64,000 bases of DNA, taken from NCBI RefSeq assembly GCF_902832885.1, contig NZ_CADFDK010000013.1:1-64000 (forward strand). The letters are read 5' to 3'. A model generated the notes under the pieces. It saw nothing but the letters and a program-made list of their open reading frames with translations. It was not told the DNA's origin and did not search any database. This document shows, piece by piece, positions 42,577 through 50,042 of the stretch (position 1 is the stretch's first letter; each line of letters starts with the position of its first letter). Position numbers and translations under genes: made by a program. This stretch comes from Burkholderia seminalis DSM 23518 (GTDB lineage: Bacteria; Pseudomonadota; Gammaproteobacteria; Burkholderiales; Burkholderiaceae).

Positions 42577-43482
42577 CTACCCGCCGCCCGCGACGCGCGC
42601 GATCGTCTGCCGCAGCCAGATGTGTGCGGCGTCGCCATGCCGGCGCTCATGCCAGTGCTGCGCGAATTCGAACGAATCGATCGGGAACGGCGGGTCGAAC
42701 ACGCGCAAGCGTGCGTCGTCGCGCACGCGGTCGAGGTTGCGGCGCGCGACGGTCAGCACGAGATCGGTACCCGCGATCAGGTCGTTCGCGACACTCCAGA
42801 ACGGCAGGATCACCGCGATGTGCCGCTCGTGCCGCAGCCGCGCGAGCGCCCGATCGACCTCGTTGTCCATCCCGTCACGCATCGCGACGAGCGCGTGCGG
42901 CCGCGCGAGCCACGCGTCGAGCGCGAGTTCGCCGCGGCGCGGCAGGCGGCTCGCGTCGGCCACGCATGCGAACGACTCCACGAACAGCGGCTGGGCATGC
43001 AGGTCGCGCTGCAATGCGGGCAGCACGCCGAGCGCGAGATCGACCTCGCCGTCCATCAACTGCATGCGCATCGCCTCGCGCGTGCCCTGCGACACGATCA
43101 GCTCGATGCCCGGCGCGTCGGCGCGCAACGTCTTCACGAGCGCGGGCAGCACGATCCGCGCACCGTAGTCGGACATCGCGATGCGAAAGACGCGCGTGGC
43201 CGCGGACGGATCGAACGCCGGCGGCTCGATCAGCGCGCCGAGCCGCCCGAGGACGTCGTTCAGCGGCTCGACCAGTTCGTTCGCGCGCGCGGTCAGCTCG
43301 AGCCGGCCCGCGCGCCGCACCAGCAGCGGATCGCCGAAGATCTCGCGCAGCCGCGCGAGCGCGTGGCTCACGGCCGGCTGGCTCCGGTGCAGCCGGAGCG
43401 CCGTGCGCGAGATGTGACGTTCGCTCAGCAACACATGCAGCGTGACGAGCAGGTTCAGGTCGATACGGGCCAGATTATTCAT
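42577..43482 (-). CDS. LysR-family regulator, NodD/LeuO-like branch
   Basis: About 301 residues from MNNLARIDLNLL (start 43482; an ATG at 43500 adds six residues). The DLNLL opening, long recognition helix LHRSQPAVSHALARLREIFG and DPLLVRRAGRLELT place it in the NodD/LinR/LeuO branch. Effector domain from about residue 90 (TRVFRIAMSDYGARIVLPAL). Divergent from the YdcZ-family transporter gene, which it probably controls. Confidence 0.9.
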   Translation of the reverse strand: MNNLARIDLNLLVTLHVLLSERHISRTALRLHRSQPAVSHALARLREIFGDPLLVRRAGRLELTARANELVEPLNDVLGRLGALIEPPAFDPSAATRVFRIAMSDYGARIVLPALVKTLRADAPGIELIVSQGTREAMRMQLMDGEVDLALGVLPALQRDLHAQPLFVESFACVADASRLPRRGELALDAWLARPHALVAMRDGMDNEVDRALARLRHERHIAVILPFWSVANDLIAGTDLVLTVARRNLDRVRDDARLRVFDPPFPIDSFEFAQHWHERRHGDAAHIWLRQTIARVAGGG

Positions 43483-43572
43483 TGCACGAATACGAGCCAT
43501 CCGAAAGACGAATTTCCATTCGCCATCTTAATGGATGACACTCTTTTCGACATCCTTTCAAGACCGACCAAG

Positions 43573-44094
43573 ATGACGACTTCGCTTTCCTTCGCCACGC
43601 TCCCGCTCGCCGTCGCGGCTTTCGTCGCCGGCGCGCTCGTGCCGCTGCAGGGCGGCAGCAACGCCGCGCTCGGGCGTGCGCTCGGCCACCCGCTGTGGGC
43701 GAGCGTCGCGTCGCTGACGGTCAGCCTGCTCGCGGTGCTGCCGGTGCTGCTGGCGACGCGTGCGCACGCACCGCTCGTCGGCGACGCGCTGCAGCGCCCA
43801 CTGTGGATGTGGCTCGGCGGCCTCGCGGGCGTGATCTACATCACGCTCGCGCTGATCCTGACGCCGCGGCTCGGCGCGACGACCTTCATCGTCTGCGTCG
43901 TCGCCGGGCAGATGCTCGCATCGCTGCTGATCGACCACTACGGGCTGATGGGGCTCGCGCAGCGGCTGGCGACGCCCGGCCGCATCGCGGGCATCGCGCT
44001 GATCTTCGCGGGGATGATCGTCGTGCAATGGCAAACGCCCGCGCCGGTTGCGGCAGGCAACGCGGCGGCCGCGCGGCCCGAGCCGCAGCGTTGA
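43573..44094 (+). CDS. DMT-superfamily membrane protein, YdcZ (DUF606) type
   Basis: 173 residues from ATG at 43573; an upstream ATG at 43531 is possible but would sit in the promoter gap. Five helices in the bacterial DUF606 pattern: FVAGALVPLQGGSNAALGRA, LWASVASLTVSLLAVLPVLL, GGLAGVIYITLALILTPRLG, TTFIVCVVAGQMLASLLIDH, IAGIALIFAGMIVVQW. Half-size DMT transporter, often with a second copy. Substrate unknown. Confidence 0.88.
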   Translation: MTTSLSFATLPLAVAAFVAGALVPLQGGSNAALGRALGHPLWASVASLTVSLLAVLPVLLATRAHAPLVGDALQRPLWMWLGGLAGVIYITLALILTPRLGATTFIVCVVAGQMLASLLIDHYGLMGLAQRLATPGRIAGIALIFAGMIVVQWQTPAPVAAGNAAAARPEPQR

Positions 44095-44131: not shown

Positions 44132-44497
44132 TCAGCCCGCGAGCTTCTTCAGCGCGTCGAGCACAGCGTCGCCCTTGAACGGCTTCACGATCCAGCCCTT
44201 CACGCCGGCCGCCTTGCCGCGCTCCTTCATCGCCGGGCTGCTTTCGGTCGTCAGCATCACGACGTTGACCGCCGTGTTCGCCAGTTCGCCGCGGATCTTC
44301 TCGACCATCGTCAGGCCATCCATGTTCGGCATGTTCACGTCGCTGATCACGAGGCGCACGCCGGGCGTCGCCTTGAGCTTCGCGAGCCCGTCCTTGCCGT
44401 CGACGGCCGTCGCGACGTCGAGCCCGTGATTGCGCAGGAAACCCGCGACCTCGTCGCGCACCGTGCCCGAATCGTCGACCACCAGAATCTTTGCCAT
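44132..44497 (-). CDS. cheY: CheY-like single-domain response regulator
   Basis: 121 residues, RBS GGAGG. Complete receiver: acidic pair in LVVDDSGTVRDE, phosphoacceptor Asp53 in LVISDVNMPNMDGL, Thr in VVMLTTESSP, Lys in IVKPFKGD. No output domain, so like CheY it should act by binding a target. Last gene of the signalling operon, 29 bases after the receiver-CheX gene. Whether it reaches the flagellar motor or another target cannot be told. It may be one of several CheY proteins in the cell. Confidence 0.9.
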   Translation of the reverse strand: MAKILVVDDSGTVRDEVAGFLRNHGLDVATAVDGKDGLAKLKATPGVRLVISDVNMPNMDGLTMVEKIRGELANTAVNVVMLTTESSPAMKERGKAAGVKGWIVKPFKGDAVLDALKKLAG

Positions 44498-44526
44498 GTC
44501 GTATTCCTCCTTCGTTGTTGCTGACT

Positions 44527-45486
44527 TCAAAACAGTTCGAGTTCACCCGACTCGACCATCGGTCCGACGTCCTGCACCGATTCGCGGAAATCCTCCGGCG
44601 ACCAGCTGAGGCTGAACACGAAGCGCTGGTCGAGACAGACGGCGCGCCCCGATTGCGGATCGGTCATCCGGTACTTGAAACAAAGCTGCGGACAGTCGCC
44701 GCCGAACGAGATGAACTTCTGCTTGTGGTTGACGACGAGCGGCACCTGCACCGGATGGCGCGCCAGCGCCTCGGCGTCGCCGAGATAGCGGTTCTTGAAC
44801 GCGCCCCACACGAGGTTCGTCAGTTCGCCGAGCACGCTGTTCACGTCGCGGAAATCCGGCGCGCGACCCTCGCCGCGCGTGCCGCCGATCATGTCGAGCA
44901 GCGGCTGCTCGCTCGTTTGCAGCAGCATGTAGCCGCGGCACCACGCGCTTTCGAGCGCGATCAGGCTGAACACCTCGCCGAAGATGATCTGGTCGCGGAC
45001 GATGCACGGCGTTTCGTGCTCGATCGCCATGCCCGGGAACAGGCTGTCGATGCGCGCCTCGGTGATCTCCGAGATGCCGCGCACGAGCGCGTTCGGATAA
45101 TCGCGGCCGAACAGGTATTCGTCGATCGCGCGCTCGAGCGGCGTCATGTCGTCCGCGACGTAGGCCGCGCAGGCCACGCGCGCGAGCGCATCGGGCAGTC
45201 CGTCGCGCGACGCGAGCGATTCGCGGCGCAGGATGATCGGCAGTTCGGGCCGCAGCGCATCGATCTGCGTGGCGATGATCGCGCTCTCGGCCGGCGAACC
45301 GCCGTAATCCTCGGCCAGCAGGATCGCGCCGAGGTCGATGTTCGAGCGCAGCACCTTCAGCAGCCGGCTGCGCCGCACAGTCAGGCCGACCAGGTTGTGC
45401 TCGTCGCAGAAGCGCTTGATCGCATCGGCGTGCGCGCGGCTGTCGTCGAGCACGAGCACCTTGCTGACGGGTTGGTCTTGGGTCAT
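44527..45486 (-). CDS. Receiver-CheC/CheX-like phosphatase fusion
   Basis: 319 residues. Residues 8-125 form a degenerate receiver: VLVLDDSRAHADAIKRFCDE keeps the acidic pair, but the third beta-strand reads ILLAEDYGG where DxxMP is expected, so phosphorylation is doubtful. Residues about 150-300 match the CheC/CheX/FliY phosphatase group: SVLGELTN fits the (D/S)xxxExxN signature, and a Pro follows about 21 residues later (ALARHP). The chain ends GELELF, as does its neighbour. It probably dephosphorylates CheY. Fourth gene of the operon. Confidence 0.82.
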   Translation of the reverse strand: MTQDQPVSKVLVLDDSRAHADAIKRFCDEHNLVGLTVRRSRLLKVLRSNIDLGAILLAEDYGGSPAESAIIATQIDALRPELPIILRRESLASRDGLPDALARVACAAYVADDMTPLERAIDEYLFGRDYPNALVRGISEITEARIDSLFPGMAIEHETPCIVRDQIIFGEVFSLIALESAWCRGYMLLQTSEQPLLDMIGGTRGEGRAPDFRDVNSVLGELTNLVWGAFKNRYLGDAEALARHPVQVPLVVNHKQKFISFGGDCPQLCFKYRMTDPQSGRAVCLDQRFVFSLSWSPEDFRESVQDVGPMVESGELELF

Positions 45487-45508
45487 CTCGCGGATTCCTC
45501 GTGGTCGG

Positions 45509-46099
45509 TCAGAACAGTTCGAGCTCGCCGCCGGTATCCACCGCCGCCGTTTCCGGCACCTGGAAATCGACCGGCGCGTTCGCGCACACGCACAGCGTCG
45601 CGCCGACCCGCACGTCGCCGTCGAGCGTGAGGTCGTACGCGGCCACGTAATCGGGTGCGAGCACGGGCAGATAGTCGATGCTCGCGCCGCTCAGCAAATA
45701 CGGCGTCGACATCCCGAGATCGGGGAACGGCGCGGTCAGCGCCTGGTTGATCGCGCCGCAGCACAGGTTCGCGACTTCCATGAACGCTTCGGGCAGCGGC
45801 CGCTGGCTGCCCGTGCCCGCCGTCGTGCCGGCGAAATGGCGTCGTGTCGCGTCGTCGTCGTTGAAGCGCAGCGCGAGCAGCAGGCGGAAATGCAGGGCCG
45901 AGATCGTCAGTACCGCGACATGCTCGGGCACCTTCGGCGCCGACCGCGACCTCGCATGCACGCGATCGTGCCCGTCGTGTTCGTCGTGCTCGTGGCCGGC
46001 GGCCGGCCGGATGTCGCACGCGCCGCCGGACGCGAGCCGCGTGCGCGCCGCGTCGAAAAAGATCCGTTCGAAACCGGCCCTGGCCTGCGCGCTGATCAC
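45509..46099 (-). CDS. CheC/CheX-like phosphatase with His-rich insert
   Basis: 196 residues. After a His/Asp-rich loop (residues about 35-48, AAGHEHDEHDGHDRVHARS, perhaps metal-binding) the CheX-like domain has EAFMEVANLCCGAINQAL, where ExxN is kept with Glu replacing the leading D/S and a Pro 22 residues beyond, then STPYLLSGASIDYLPVLA. It ends GGELELF. Start overlaps the MCP-like gene stop by four bases. A CheY-phosphate phosphatase or adaptor is the likely role. Confidence 0.78.
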   Translation of the reverse strand: MISAQARAGFERIFFDAARTRLASGGACDIRPAAGHEHDEHDGHDRVHARSRSAPKVPEHVAVLTISALHFRLLLALRFNDDDATRRHFAGTTAGTGSQRPLPEAFMEVANLCCGAINQALTAPFPDLGMSTPYLLSGASIDYLPVLAPDYVAAYDLTLDGDVRVGATLCVCANAPVDFQVPETAAVDTGGELELF

Positions 46100-46842
46100 G
46101 CCGCCTCTCCTTCGATGCGCGCGTGCAGCTGCCCCGCCAGCGTCTCGACGGTCGCGAGCGCGGCCGTGATCATCTTGCCGCCGGCCTGGATGTCCTGGAA
46201 CGTCGCGGCCGTCACGAGATCGTTGCGGTTCAGGCTGTCGCGATAACTGTTCGACAGTTGCTGCGAACGCGCGGCCAGCCCGCGCACCTCGCTCGCGACG
46301 ATCGAGAAGCCGCGTCCGGCCGAGCCCGCGCGCGCGGCCTCGATCGACGCGTTCAGCGACACGATCGACACGTGCGCGACGATCGCCGACAGCTCCTGGT
46401 TCTTCGCGCGCATGTCGTGGTTCTGCGTGGTCAGCGAGATCATCTGCTCGTGCCAGCGCTCGAACGTGCCGGCGAGCCCGCGCAGGCGCGCGGCTTCGTC
46501 GGCGATCTTCATCGCATGCTGCGCGAGCGCCGCGCGCTCGGCAAACAGCGCCTGCCGCGCATCACGCTGCGCGCCGGCCACCGACGCCTCGCGCGCCAGC
46601 GCTTCCTCGAGCTGCGCCTCGCGTTGCGCCCAGGCGTCGGCTGCCGCCGCGTGCGCGGACACCGCGGCTTGCGCACGCGCTTCGGCCGCGTCGAGCGCGC
46701 CGCGCAACGTGTCCGCGTCATGTTCCATCGCCGCGACGAGCCGCCCGCGCATCACGCGAAACACGATCGCCGCGGCCACCGCGACGACCGCACCGCCCGC
46801 CAGCGCGACGGCCGCCTGAATCATCCACGCCTGCACGATCAC
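46096..46842 (-). CDS. Minimal MCP-like signalling protein
   Basis: 248 residues. One N-terminal membrane helix (about 9-29), a coiled coil rich in Ala, Glu and Arg (about 35-150), then a shortened MCP tip: IVSLNASIEAARAGSAGRGF SIV is the hairpin consensus, followed by ASEVRGLAARSQQLSN. It lacks a sensing domain and most of the methylation helices, and has no pentapeptide tether. In normal arrays this tip binds CheA through CheW; here no CheW is encoded, and the partner kinase has no CheW-like domain. Ends four bases into the next gene. Confidence 0.85.
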   Translation of the reverse strand: MIVQAWMIQAAVALAGGAVVAVAAAIVFRVMRGRLVAAMEHDADTLRGALDAAEARAQAAVSAHAAAADAWAQREAQLEEALAREASVAGAQRDARQALFAERAALAQHAMKIADEAARLRGLAGTFERWHEQMISLTTQNHDMRAKNQELSAIVAHVSIVSLNASIEAARAGSAGRGFSIVASEVRGLAARSQQLSNSYRDSLNRNDLVTAATFQDIQAGGKMITAALATVETLAGQLHARIEGEAA

Positions 46843-46846
46843 GTCG

Positions 46847-49234
46847 TCACTCCGCCGCGCCGATATCCGCGATGCGCGCCCGCTGCTCGTGCGGCGCGTC
46901 GTGCGCGGCGCCGTCGGCCGCGAAGCGCACCGGCAGCGACACGATCGTCTCGAACGCGCGGTACGGCGCGCCGGCGCGATCGTCGGTGAAGCGCAGCGCG
47001 ATATTGCCGCCGTCGCGCTTCAGGAAGTTGCGCACCGCGTCCATGCCGACGCCGCGCCCCGACACCTCGGTCACCGTCTGCGCGGTCGAGAAGCCCGGCC
47101 GGAAGATCAGCTCGGCGACATCCTCGTCGGACAGCGCCGCTTCGTTGCCGGCCTCGATCCAGCCGCGCTCGCGCGCGATGCCGCGGATCCGGTCGAGCGC
47201 GAGGCCGCGGCCGTCGTCGCCGAGCACGAACCACAGCTCGCCGCCGCCCACGCCGACCGCGATGTCGATCGTGCCGGACGCCGGCTTGCCGGCCGCGCGC
47301 CGCTCCTCCGACGATTCGATGCCGTGATCGATCGCGTTGCGCAGCAGGTGCATGAACACGTTCTTCAGCGTCGCGGCGATCTCGCTGCGCACGCGCTGGC
47401 CGTGGCTGTCGACATGCACGACGGGCGCCGGCTTGCCGAGTTCGGCCGCGAGCGACGGCAGCGACTCGATCACGCCGCCGAGCGCGTCGCCGATGCCCTG
47501 CGTGCCGAGCTGGCTCAGCATGCGGCGCACGGCATCGCGTGCCGCGTGCCAGTCGGCCACGTTCGCCGGATCGGCGCCGTCGAGCACGCGCAGGCTTTCG
47601 CTGATGTGCGCGCGTTCGACCATCAGGAACTCGGCGCCGCCCTGCGCCGGCTCACCGCCGCGGCCGAGCGTGACCGCGTTGATCGTCGCGTAGTGTTCGA
47701 CGGCATCGCGCACGCGCGCGAGGTCGTCCATCAGCGCGTCGCGGTTCCACTCGGGGCCGCCGTCCGCGCGGCGCAGCGATTCGTACGCCTGCTCGGCCTC
47801 GTGAACGATGTTCGTCAGGTGCTGCAGGCTGTACGTGCGCGCGTTGCCCTTGATCGTGTGCATGTTGCGGAACAGCGCGGCGACGATCGAATGATCGGCG
47901 CGCTCGTGCTGGCGGATCATCCGCTCGTTCTCGCTCAGGAAGCCCTTCGCGCTGTGCACGAAGTCGTGGAACTTGTCCTGGCTGATCGACAGGATCTCGC
48001 CGATCATCTCGAGGCGGCGCTGCTGCTCGCCCGCCTGCGCGGTCAACTCGCGGATCTCGGTCACGTCGCGCACGCACAGCATCAGCCGCACGACCGCGTC
48101 GGTCTCGTCGGTGATCGCCGACCAGCTCAGGTCGAGCCACTTCTCGCGGCCGTCCGGCATGCGCTTCGCGACTTCGTTGACGAGCAGGTGTTCGTTGAAC
48201 TCGAAGTTCATGCTGTCCTCGCCGAGGCACGCATGCACGGCCGCATCGACCTGCGAACGCGCGTCGGCGCCGATCGCCGAATCGTCGAACACGAGCGCCA
48301 TCAGGTCGCGCCCGGCGATGTCGTTCGTCTCGAAGATGGTTTCGAGGTACGCCGAATATTCCGCATGCACGACGCCGCCTTCGACGACGGTCAGGATCCC
48401 CTGCTGCATGTTCTGCAGCATCGCCTGGATGTCGGCCGTCTTCTGCTTGAGTTGCGCGGCGTTCTCCTGGATCTTCTCGATCATCCCGTTGAACGCGACG
48501 ATCGAATGGCCGATCTCGTCCATCCGGCCCACCGGCACGCGGCGCGTGAAATCCTGGCTCGTCGCGATCTCGCTCATCGCCGTCTGCATCCCGATCAGCG
48601 GGCGCGTGATCTGGCGATACAGCACGAAGCCGAGCGCAGTCAGCAGCACGATCACCGTGCCGGCGACGCCCGCGATCGCGGTCGCCGTCGTCGCGAGCAT
48701 CCCGTTCAGCGCGCTGATCGCGTCGTCCTTCTGGCGGTTCTTCTCGACGCGCAGCGTGCCGACGATGCTCTCGAGTTCGTCGCGATACTGCGCGACGTTC
48801 GCGAACAGGTAGGCCTGCGCCATCTCGGCCTTGCCGTCCGCCTTCATCTTCACGGTGTCGTCGATCGCCGCGAAATAGTTCGCGGCGCTGTCCTTCGCCT
48901 GCGCGACGAGGCCCTCCTGCGCATGGCCGACCGCCGATTTCGCCTGCACGTCGAGTGCGGCGCGCAGCGCGGCCTGCTTCGCCTTCAGCTCGTCGCGCGC
49001 CTGCGCGGCCGTGTTCGCGTCGGGCGCGTAGACGAGCGTCATCGTCGCGATCTGGATGTTCTTCACGTCGGCGACGAGATCGGCCGACGCGAGCGCGCTC
49101 GGCACGATGCCCTGGGTGACCTGACGCACCTCGGACGCGCTCTTGCGTGTCTGGTACACGGCATAGATGCCGATCGCGGACAGCGCGAAGAACGTCAGGA
49201 CGACTAGCAGCGTAATGCGATGACGGATGGTCAT
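46847..49234 (-). CDS. Membrane CheA-like hybrid sensor kinase (HAMP-PAS-Hpt-HATPase)
   Basis: 795 residues. TM1 about 8-27, a helical periplasmic region 29-180 of the 4HB/MCP kind (LVYAPDANTAAQARDELKAK), TM2 about 184-206, HAMP 207-262, a PAS-like domain 272-395, an Hpt-type helical domain with phospho-His459 (FRNMHTIKGNAR), a linker, and a CheA-type ATPase: N-box HLLRNAIDHGIES (Asn633), GDDGRGL 672-678, SGRGVGM 726-732. It ends shortly after, so the regulatory P5/CheW-like domain of CheA is missing. Leads the operon and presumably phosphorylates CheY downstream. Confidence 0.88.
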   Translation of the reverse strand: MTIRHRITLLVVLTFFALSAIGIYAVYQTRKSASEVRQVTQGIVPSALASADLVADVKNIQIATMTLVYAPDANTAAQARDELKAKQAALRAALDVQAKSAVGHAQEGLVAQAKDSAANYFAAIDDTVKMKADGKAEMAQAYLFANVAQYRDELESIVGTLRVEKNRQKDDAISALNGMLATTATAIAGVAGTVIVLLTALGFVLYRQITRPLIGMQTAMSEIATSQDFTRRVPVGRMDEIGHSIVAFNGMIEKIQENAAQLKQKTADIQAMLQNMQQGILTVVEGGVVHAEYSAYLETIFETNDIAGRDLMALVFDDSAIGADARSQVDAAVHACLGEDSMNFEFNEHLLVNEVAKRMPDGREKWLDLSWSAITDETDAVVRLMLCVRDVTEIRELTAQAGEQQRRLEMIGEILSISQDKFHDFVHSAKGFLSENERMIRQHERADHSIVAALFRNMHTIKGNARTYSLQHLTNIVHEAEQAYESLRRADGGPEWNRDALMDDLARVRDAVEHYATINAVTLGRGGEPAQGGAEFLMVERAHISESLRVLDGADPANVADWHAARDAVRRMLSQLGTQGIGDALGGVIESLPSLAAELGKPAPVVHVDSHGQRVRSEIAATLKNVFMHLLRNAIDHGIESSEERRAAGKPASGTIDIAVGVGGGELWFVLGDDGRGLALDRIRGIARERGWIEAGNEAALSDEDVAELIFRPGFSTAQTVTEVSGRGVGMDAVRNFLKRDGGNIALRFTDDRAGAPYRAFETIVSLPVRFAADGAAHDAPHEQRARIADIGAAE

Positions 49235-49634: not shown

Positions 49635-50042
49635 TCAATGTTCGCACGGCCCGGCAAGCCAGTCTTCGAATTGCAGTCGCGGTACCCGCTCGAATTCGCG
49701 AACGTTGTGCGTGACAAGCACCAGATGCCGGGCGCGTGCCTGCCCGGCTATCAAGGCATCGTATGGACCGATCGGCGTACCGGCCGCCATCAGGTGCGCA
49801 CGAATCTCGCCGGCATGCTGAGCATCCTCGACATCGAAGGACACGACCTCGAACTGAAGCGCCTCGACACGCGCGACATTCGCAGCCGCTCGCTGGCTCT
49901 TGTACGCGCCGTAATAGAGTTGGTGCGCGACGATCGCCGGCATCCCGAAATCAGCCGGCTGGTAGGAACGCAGGCGGCCCAGCATGGCCGGCTCGCCTTT
50001 GAGAACGGCAATCACCGCGTGGGTATCCAGCAGGAATTTCAT
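49635..50042 (-). CDS. vapC: VapC toxin, PIN-domain ribonuclease
   Basis: 135 residues. Acidic PIN signature: FLLDTHAVIAVL (Asp6), IVAHQLYYGA, IGPYDALIAGQA (Asp) and VTHNVREFERV. Start at 50042 overlaps the antitoxin stop by four bases, the usual toxin-antitoxin coupling. Cuts RNA when the antitoxin is lost. Confidence 0.9.
   Translation of the reverse strand: MKFLLDTHAVIAVLKGEPAMLGRLRSYQPADFGMPAIVAHQLYYGAYKSQRAAANVARVEALQFEVVSFDVEDAQHAGEIRAHLMAAGTPIGPYDALIAGQARARHLVLVTHNVREFERVPRLQFEDWLAGPCEH

Follow-up and report, generated by a model that had tools for sequence, protein, structure and literature searches.

A Five-Gene Cassette on the Minus Strand

On the minus strand of a 64,000-nucleotide stretch of DNA from Burkholderia seminalis DSM 23518 (hereafter the window), five tightly packed genes are located between positions 44132 and 49234 which encode, in order of transcription, a receptor-kinase (HK, 46847..49234, 795 aa), an MCP-like protein (46096..46842, 248 aa), the CheX-like protein CX1 (45509..46099, 196 aa), a receiver-fold domain fused to CheX (RCX, 44527..45486, 319 aa) and a single-domain CheY (44132..44497, 121 aa). 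Gaps of 4, 22 and 29 bases separate HK from the MCP-like gene, CX1 from RCX and RCX from CheY, respectively, and the MCP-like gene overlaps with CX1 by 4 bases. Open reading frames, strand and coordinates agree with the original prediction, which had proposed one tight operon for a membrane HAMP-PAS-Hpt-HATPase kinase without a P5/CheW-like domain, an MCP-like protein, two CheC/CheX-like proteins and a CheY, and the codons of the phosphorylation sites it had assigned, His459 of HK and Asp53 of CheY, are both found in place. It had missed the four-helix sensor of the kinase, the receiver-fold domain of RCX and a C-terminal tag common to CX1 and RCX. Its claim that CheW is lacking holds for the operon but not for the cell, and CheW can hardly be called unavailable to the cassette, as six CheW-domain matches are present elsewhere in the same genome (8.0 Mb, 55 contigs), two or more of which are part of CheAs.

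Spread and Gene Order

Scanning a genome collection with RCX gave 225 relatives, the best 80 of which were kept and combined with eight further stretches to a set of 88 loci, many of them from close relatives and not independent. All five genes are found on one strand in the order HK-MCP-CX1-RCX-CheY in 83 of these loci (counting in L077 with its disrupted kinase frame), whereas L028 and L030 possess the same genes in the alternative order HK-RCX-CheY-MCP-CX1; the CX1 of L030 was below the score cut in the first locus count and was recovered in a later scan. In L074, the cassette is truncated by the contig end, and L031 and L105 bear RCX only. Outside the 88 loci, the full set in the main order is present in L132, L134 and L135, belonging to further genera. 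As the gene set is kept despite reordering, the best interpretation of the five-gene cassette is that of a functional unit.

Counting the source genome each time, RCX is present in 59 of the 65 genomes from the genus and in 6 of the 200 from the order; in the class and phylum draws, it is found in 4 of 369 and 5 of 398 genomes, respectively. Conservation across Burkholderiales, which was to be checked, is patchy. A search for the HK core at E 1e-70 retrieved 3 of 299 phylum-draw genomes, again including the source genome and all RCX-positive, and the low counts for both proteins in the class and phylum draws indicate that the cassette is uncommon at that breadth. Among the best 80 of the 225 relatives, the genera Burkholderia, Paraburkholderia, Caballeronia, Trinickia, Pandoraea, Noviherbaspirillum, Sterolibacterium, Propionivibrio and Dechloromonas as well as another Rhodocyclaceae bacterium are represented, and relatives of RCX at 97% identity are all from Burkholderia, for example, B. 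cepacia, B. arboris and B. metallica. A homologous cassette is also located in Paraburkholderia xenovorans LB400 (L097). In the plasmid collection, six records were found, exclusively from Burkholderia or Caballeronia and on replicons of 1.99 to 3.53 Mb. In Burkholderia multivorans (L077:4274-7441), the kinase frame is disrupted, giving two matches in different frames, and the other four genes are present. The RCX frame of L010/L028 shows one internal TGA.

A description of such an operon as a known pathway was not found among the listed matches from the open-licence literature, judged from titles and the beginnings of abstracts and with most subscription journals outside of the coverage; PMC8789113, PMC8995066 and PMC7970998 concern other systems.

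Receptor-Kinase HK

The N-terminal sensor module of HK (residues 1–156, 48767..49234) matches 4HB_MCP_1 over the Pfam cut-off, and the same holds for the HAMP domain (residues 205–257, 48464..48622) and the P1-like Hpt domain (residues 447–510, 47705..47896), while the PAS-like domain in between (residues 268–391, 48062..48433) stays below the cut-off, with a match at E 0.01 in 12 of 25 aligned kinases. A CheA-type P4 kinase domain follows (residues 591–768, 46931..47464), with HATPase_c matched over the cut-off at residues 622–747. Two hydrophobic stretches were deduced from Kyte-Doolittle hydropathy only. The predicted phospho-accepting His459 within Hpt (codon 47858..47860) is kept in 86 of 86 alignment rows, and the residues tested for the N, G1 and G2 boxes are intact in 85 of them, the exception being L077. 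Accordingly, the predicted HAMP-PAS-Hpt-HATPase kinase without P5 can be recognized, with the reservation made for PAS.

The P4 domain matches a CheA chain at a profile E of 4.4e-43 and, in profile-profile comparison, the two CheAs of the source genome at a probability of 99.8, but this match stops at the P4/P5 border. The tail beyond the CheA-like match comprises 42 residues and is thus too short for a P5 domain. Across the alignment, tails beyond residue 768 do not exceed 56 residues in 85 of 86 rows, compared to 225 in the frame-disrupted L077. A CheW domain was not matched in HK at E 1 (Pfam), nor in any of the 25 aligned kinases or the 10 of a second scan (L071 being common to both). Hence, a P5 concealed in the tail of HK can be ruled out by the missing CheW match, the similarity ending at P4 and the short tails; an unrecognized CheW-binding domain, which the original prediction had named as an argument against itself, was not detected by Pfam or profile-profile comparison. 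H-kinase_dim, corresponding to P3, is not among the Pfam matches, and a weak profile run-on from residue 550 is missing from the profile-profile comparison, which starts at P4. HK also differs from classical sensor kinases, as no HisKA domain was found by Pfam in HK or in the 25 aligned kinases. When searching the source genome for paralogues of HK at E 0.001, only the P4 domains of the two CheAs were matched.

Compared to CheA with its P1-P2-P3-P4-P5 architecture, HK likewise shows Hpt followed by a CheA-type P4, with profile matches to P4 and P1 of CheA, whereas it lacks the P5/CheW domain and a recognized H-kinase_dim and possesses its own sensor with HAMP and PAS. According to Berry et al. 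2023 (PMC10782961), the CheW domain is found in 100% of 13,673 CheA sequences, partly owing to the way in which these were gathered, which places HK outside CheA as defined there. Judged from its domains, HK is built like a chemosensory kinase, yet, lacking P5, it is not classed here as a CheA.

All of the 25 aligned kinases match 4HB_MCP in the Pfam scan. In L132, the kinase N-terminus is a soluble PAS_3 domain. The kinases of L026, L108 to L110 and L134 show no recognized sensor, with L026 and L134 also being without a HAMP match, and those of L066 and L071 bear a TarH-type sensor in addition to a weaker 4HB_MCP match. Over 22 relatives, identity to HK drops to 0.13 in the sensor region while being at least 0.41 in P4. 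This combination of N-termini varying between lineages and a constant Hpt-P4 core is the best evidence for direct sensing of a signal by the kinase, as originally proposed, and supports this role for HK at the level of sequence comparison.

MCP-Like Protein

In line with the predicted reduction to one transmembrane stretch, a coiled coil and a hairpin tip, the MCP-like protein shows a single hydrophobic stretch near its N-terminus (Kyte-Doolittle only) and an MCPsignal match (PF00015) over the cut-off at residues 133–238, which is also obtained with 18 of 18 relatives scanned. The hairpin, with its tip at residues 150–195 (46258..46395) as deduced from alignment and comparison with receptors of the source genome, has the LNA-IEAARAG core of MCPs (here LNASIEAARAG). 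Unlike MCPs, however, the protein has a short C-terminal arm and lacks a Pfam match for sensor or HAMP domains, and the source genome's copy does not end in a pentapeptide.

The QTN motif of receptors makes contact with CheW and CheA. Instead of AFQTNIL(ALNA), as found in three receptors of the source genome, the tip of the MCP-like protein reads VAHVSIV, and this conserved H-V-x replacing QTN has His at position 157 in 81 of 87 rows. In the MCP-like protein, 86 residues extend from the tip to the C-terminus versus 139 to 270 in the same three receptors, of which two terminate with the pentapeptides DWTAF and DWETF; a fourth receptor reading frame (in L141) did not match the motif search and was left out of the comparison. 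Judged by length only and without a search for methylation sites, the MCP-like protein probably lacks the methylation helices. In L132 (10084-10923), the MCP-like protein bears a long acidic tail ending FELDF, similar to the tag of the phosphatases described below.

CheX-Type Proteins CX1 and RCX

Both CX1 and RCX contain the E-x-x-N motif of CheX-type phosphatases, kept as E108-x-x-N111 (45767..45778) in 86 of 86 rows of CX1 and as E221-x-x-N224 (44815..44826) in 89 of 89 rows of RCX. The CheX domain of RCX (residues 128–295, 44602..45105) is matched over the Pfam cut-off at residues 172–272, and the predicted structure of RCX aligns to the CheX structures 3hm4, 1xko and 3hzh, the latter from a CheX-CheY complex. 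In CX1, CheX is the sole family match, obtained below the Pfam cut-off and in 14 of 21 relatives at E 0.1. Hence, of the proposed two CheC/CheX-like proteins, RCX turns out to be a receiver-CheX fusion and CX1 does not reach the cut-off, although E-x-x-N is kept in both. In addition to this motif, the CheX fold predicted for RCX is shared with known CheX/CheC phosphatases, whereas the presence of two such proteins in one operon, their common C-terminal tag and the receiver-fold domain in front of RCX distinguish the cassette. The intact E-x-x-N motifs fit a reset by phosphatases rather than methylation.

The receiver-fold domain of RCX (residues 6–129, 45100..45471) was recognized in the predicted structure, the sequence profile alone giving E 0.06. 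Its phosphorylation site is degenerate: position 59, with a register read from strand 54–58 of the predicted model, is occupied by Glu in 78 of 89 rows and by Asp in no more than 4, and a K-P after strand 5 was not seen in 23 aligned sequences inspected by eye. On the basis of this model, the RCX N-terminus is probably a receiver fold not phosphorylatable in the usual way and serving as interaction domain. Common descent of CX1 and RCX was also considered. It is not shown by the profile-profile probability of 20.7, as this match rests partly on the tag.

Common C-Terminal Tag

CX1 and RCX both end in GELELF (45512..45529 and 44530..44547, respectively). Alignment of the ends gives G-x-[LI]-E-[LMF]-F for CX1 in 85 of 85 loci counted and G-[ED]-L-[ED]-[LWF]-F for RCX in 88 of 88, with slightly more variation in further loci (CX1 ending GALELF in L130 and GEMEMF in L135). 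At the DNA level, the pattern G[ED]L[ED]LF-stop has 14 matches in six genomes, 12 of which are ends of CX1, RCX or an RCX paralogue of genome G060. The two exceptions are both from G500, one having TGG instead of a stop codon and the other being without an open reading frame of at least 60 residues ending there. The source genome shows matches only at the CX1 and RCX ends, and a backward control of the pattern gave none.

CheZ is tethered to CheY by its C-terminal peptide. As CX1 and RCX presumably act on a common substrate, the tag can, by analogy, most simply be read as tethering them to CheY, although this partner is a guess. Conservation within CheY gives mixed support for such a docking, since helix 4 and strand 5 belong to its most conserved parts but helix 5 does not.

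CheY

The CheY of the cassette is a receiver (PF00072, E 2e-23) with the acidic pair, the phospho-Asp, Thr and Lys of response regulators in 87 of 87 rows, the predicted phospho-accepting residue being Asp53 (codon 44339..44341). Its best match among solved structures is CheY4 of Vibrio cholerae (4h60, 92 bits), followed by E. coli CheY with up to 73 bits, while chains which we take to be the motor-binding CheY3 of V. cholerae reach about 53 bits. Cassette CheY and CheY4 share Trp at the position of Tyr106, which is found in 87 of 87 rows of the former. In contrast to the cassette, the CheY4 cluster contains cheA3, cheW2, cheW3, cheR3, cheB3 and cheD (PMC11940527).

Proposed Pathway and Alternatives

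Considering the gene set, its linkage and the conserved catalytic residues, we regard it as fairly probable that the cassette encodes a self-contained pathway with phosphotransfer from a receptor-kinase to CheY, in which tethered phosphatases, not methylation, provide the reset. A signal would be sensed by the variable N-terminal module of HK and passed on via HAMP and PAS to the Hpt/P4 core, where P4 would phosphorylate His459 and the phosphoryl group might then be transferred to Asp53 of CheY. The likely role of the MCP-like protein, as a membrane coiled coil, would be to cluster the kinase. As CheX-type phosphatases, CX1 and RCX would dephosphorylate CheY and, thus, set the signal lifetime, with the tag tethering both to CheY in a manner comparable to the CheZ peptide and the receiver-fold domain of RCX probably acting as interaction module. 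The target of phosphorylated CheY would be encoded outside the cassette and might be reached by a route other than the classical one via FliM.

Several observations weigh against this pathway. The source genome also encodes canonical CheA and CheW as well as receptors bearing pentapeptides, so that cross-talk is possible and coupling to normal arrays is not to be dismissed by absence of CheW from the operon alone. TarH and 4HB_MCP match the same N-terminal region in L066 and L071, making these a weak case of sensor exchange. The CheX match of CX1 (E 0.033) is under the Pfam cut-off, and its profile found none of the solved structures at E 1. The tag, reading E-L-[ED]-x-F, also resembles CheR-binding receptor pentapeptides, and the lowest conservation within CheY is that of helix 5, the element completing the usual docking face, with 3 of 12 residues invariant (borders set by eye). 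Moreover, L130 (8344-11116) has MCP, CX1, RCX and CheY together with no HK within the 19 kb taken, and L031 (7174-8238), L105 (7863-8957) and L133 (8900-9883) each encode a tagged RCX-like protein with none of the other four genes nearby, perhaps representing a second use of RCX.

Among the alternatives, binding of CheY to FliM, making the cassette an alternative input to the flagellar motor, is the one to be taken most seriously, albeit rather unlikely in our view. E. coli CheY, one of the next-best solved matches, binds FliM. Moreover, FliM was detected in 44 of 45 distinct genomes carrying RCX, compared to 22 of 30 genomes from the order without RCX (Fisher p 0.002, uncorrected for kinship), the former being composed of 10 plus 36 genomes with G917 and the genome of L094 merged (FliM at the same place) and the latter being taken from the 194 negatives of the order sample. 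The sole miss among the carriers is L112, a metagenome assembly. With the first 10 RCX genomes versus the 30 negatives, the difference is not significant (p 0.17), and kinship and genome size act as confounders of the flagellar correlation. Helix 4 of the cassette CheY is unlike that of the flagellar-type CheY of the source genome. According to PMC3774744, CheY4 did not bind FliM in pull-downs, and the invariant Trp at the Tyr106 position likewise speaks against motor binding, though the Y106W variant of E. coli CheY is still active (PMC3774744). With CheY4 as best match, the comparison leans away from the FliM route without closing it, and a role of the cassette near motility is plausible.

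A bolder version of the proposed pathway, which we consider doubtful, would see in the cassette a CheW-free split receptor, in which the sensor half is fused to the CheA-type core and the hairpin half is a separate membrane protein organizing the kinase without CheW. Adaptation would then be brought about by two phosphatases recruited via a private docking code, -GEL[ED]xF, one of them with a Glu-locked receiver, and the whole arrangement might descend from, or have reverted to, the stage preceding the dependence of CheA on CheW arrays.

Conversely, the cassette might be an accessory of normal arrays, with the MCP-like hairpin joining the clusters of receptors, CheA and CheW and the membrane kinase feeding its CheY into flagellar control. 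Conservation of the hairpin residues N164, E168 and R171 in 87 of 87 rows would suit such an insertion, as would the presence of CheW in all 10 RCX-positive genomes tested, the six CheW-domain matches in the source genome and the co-occurrence with FliM. However, CheW is also found in 25 of 30 RCX-negative genomes, and the replacement of QTN by H-V-x as well as the short stretch from tip to end, both in contrast to the receptors of the same genome, make this array function improbable.

Finally, the tag might be a receptor-type pentapeptide placing CX1 and RCX, mainly as adaptors, on a CheR/CheB-like reader or the kinase instead of CheY. This is suggested by its similarity to EFEKF of Geobacter (PMC2577667) and E-W/V-E-X-F of Vibrio receptors (PMC11940527), by the ends DWETF and DWTAF in two of four receptor reading frames examined in the source genome and by FELDF in the MCP-like protein of L132, but it is improbable as well, as residue 2 of the tag is Leu, rarely Ile or Met, and not the aromatic residue of the CheR-tethering xWxxF or xF/YxxF/Y (PMC2577667), the tag sits on phosphatases in an operon without CheR, and E-x-x-N is kept in every row of both tagged proteins.

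CheA is defined by dependence on CheW-coupled receptor arrays. If the self-contained pathway proposed here is correct, the CheA-type core that many betaproteobacteria keep alongside an MCP-like hairpin, a pair of CheX-type proteins and CheY would do its own sensing, which would separate array-dependent from array-independent parts of chemosensing and make the origin of CheA testable. Besides, the common C-terminal tag offers a simple and testable docking rule for CheX-type phosphatases.

Genomic Surroundings

A larger island around the cassette was rejected, as in 27 representative loci none of the 25 largest groups of flanking families occurs in more than six loci (open reading frames in other frames over the cassette being excluded). 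The most frequent flanking group, present in six loci, consists of HisKA kinases where scanned (three of six). EAL, CBS and GGDEF matches close to the cassette are found in L113 (7870-9843) and L112 (2176-4110), indicating a possible link to cyclic di-GMP in some lineages. As output of the cassette in general, cyclic di-GMP was discarded, since these EAL-GGDEF neighbors do not represent a constant link across loci. In the window, the cassette is preceded on its own strand by a PIN-domain gene (49635-50036), possibly encoding a VapC-type toxin, and a LysR regulator and a divergently oriented YdcZ-family transporter (42577-44094) are found downstream.

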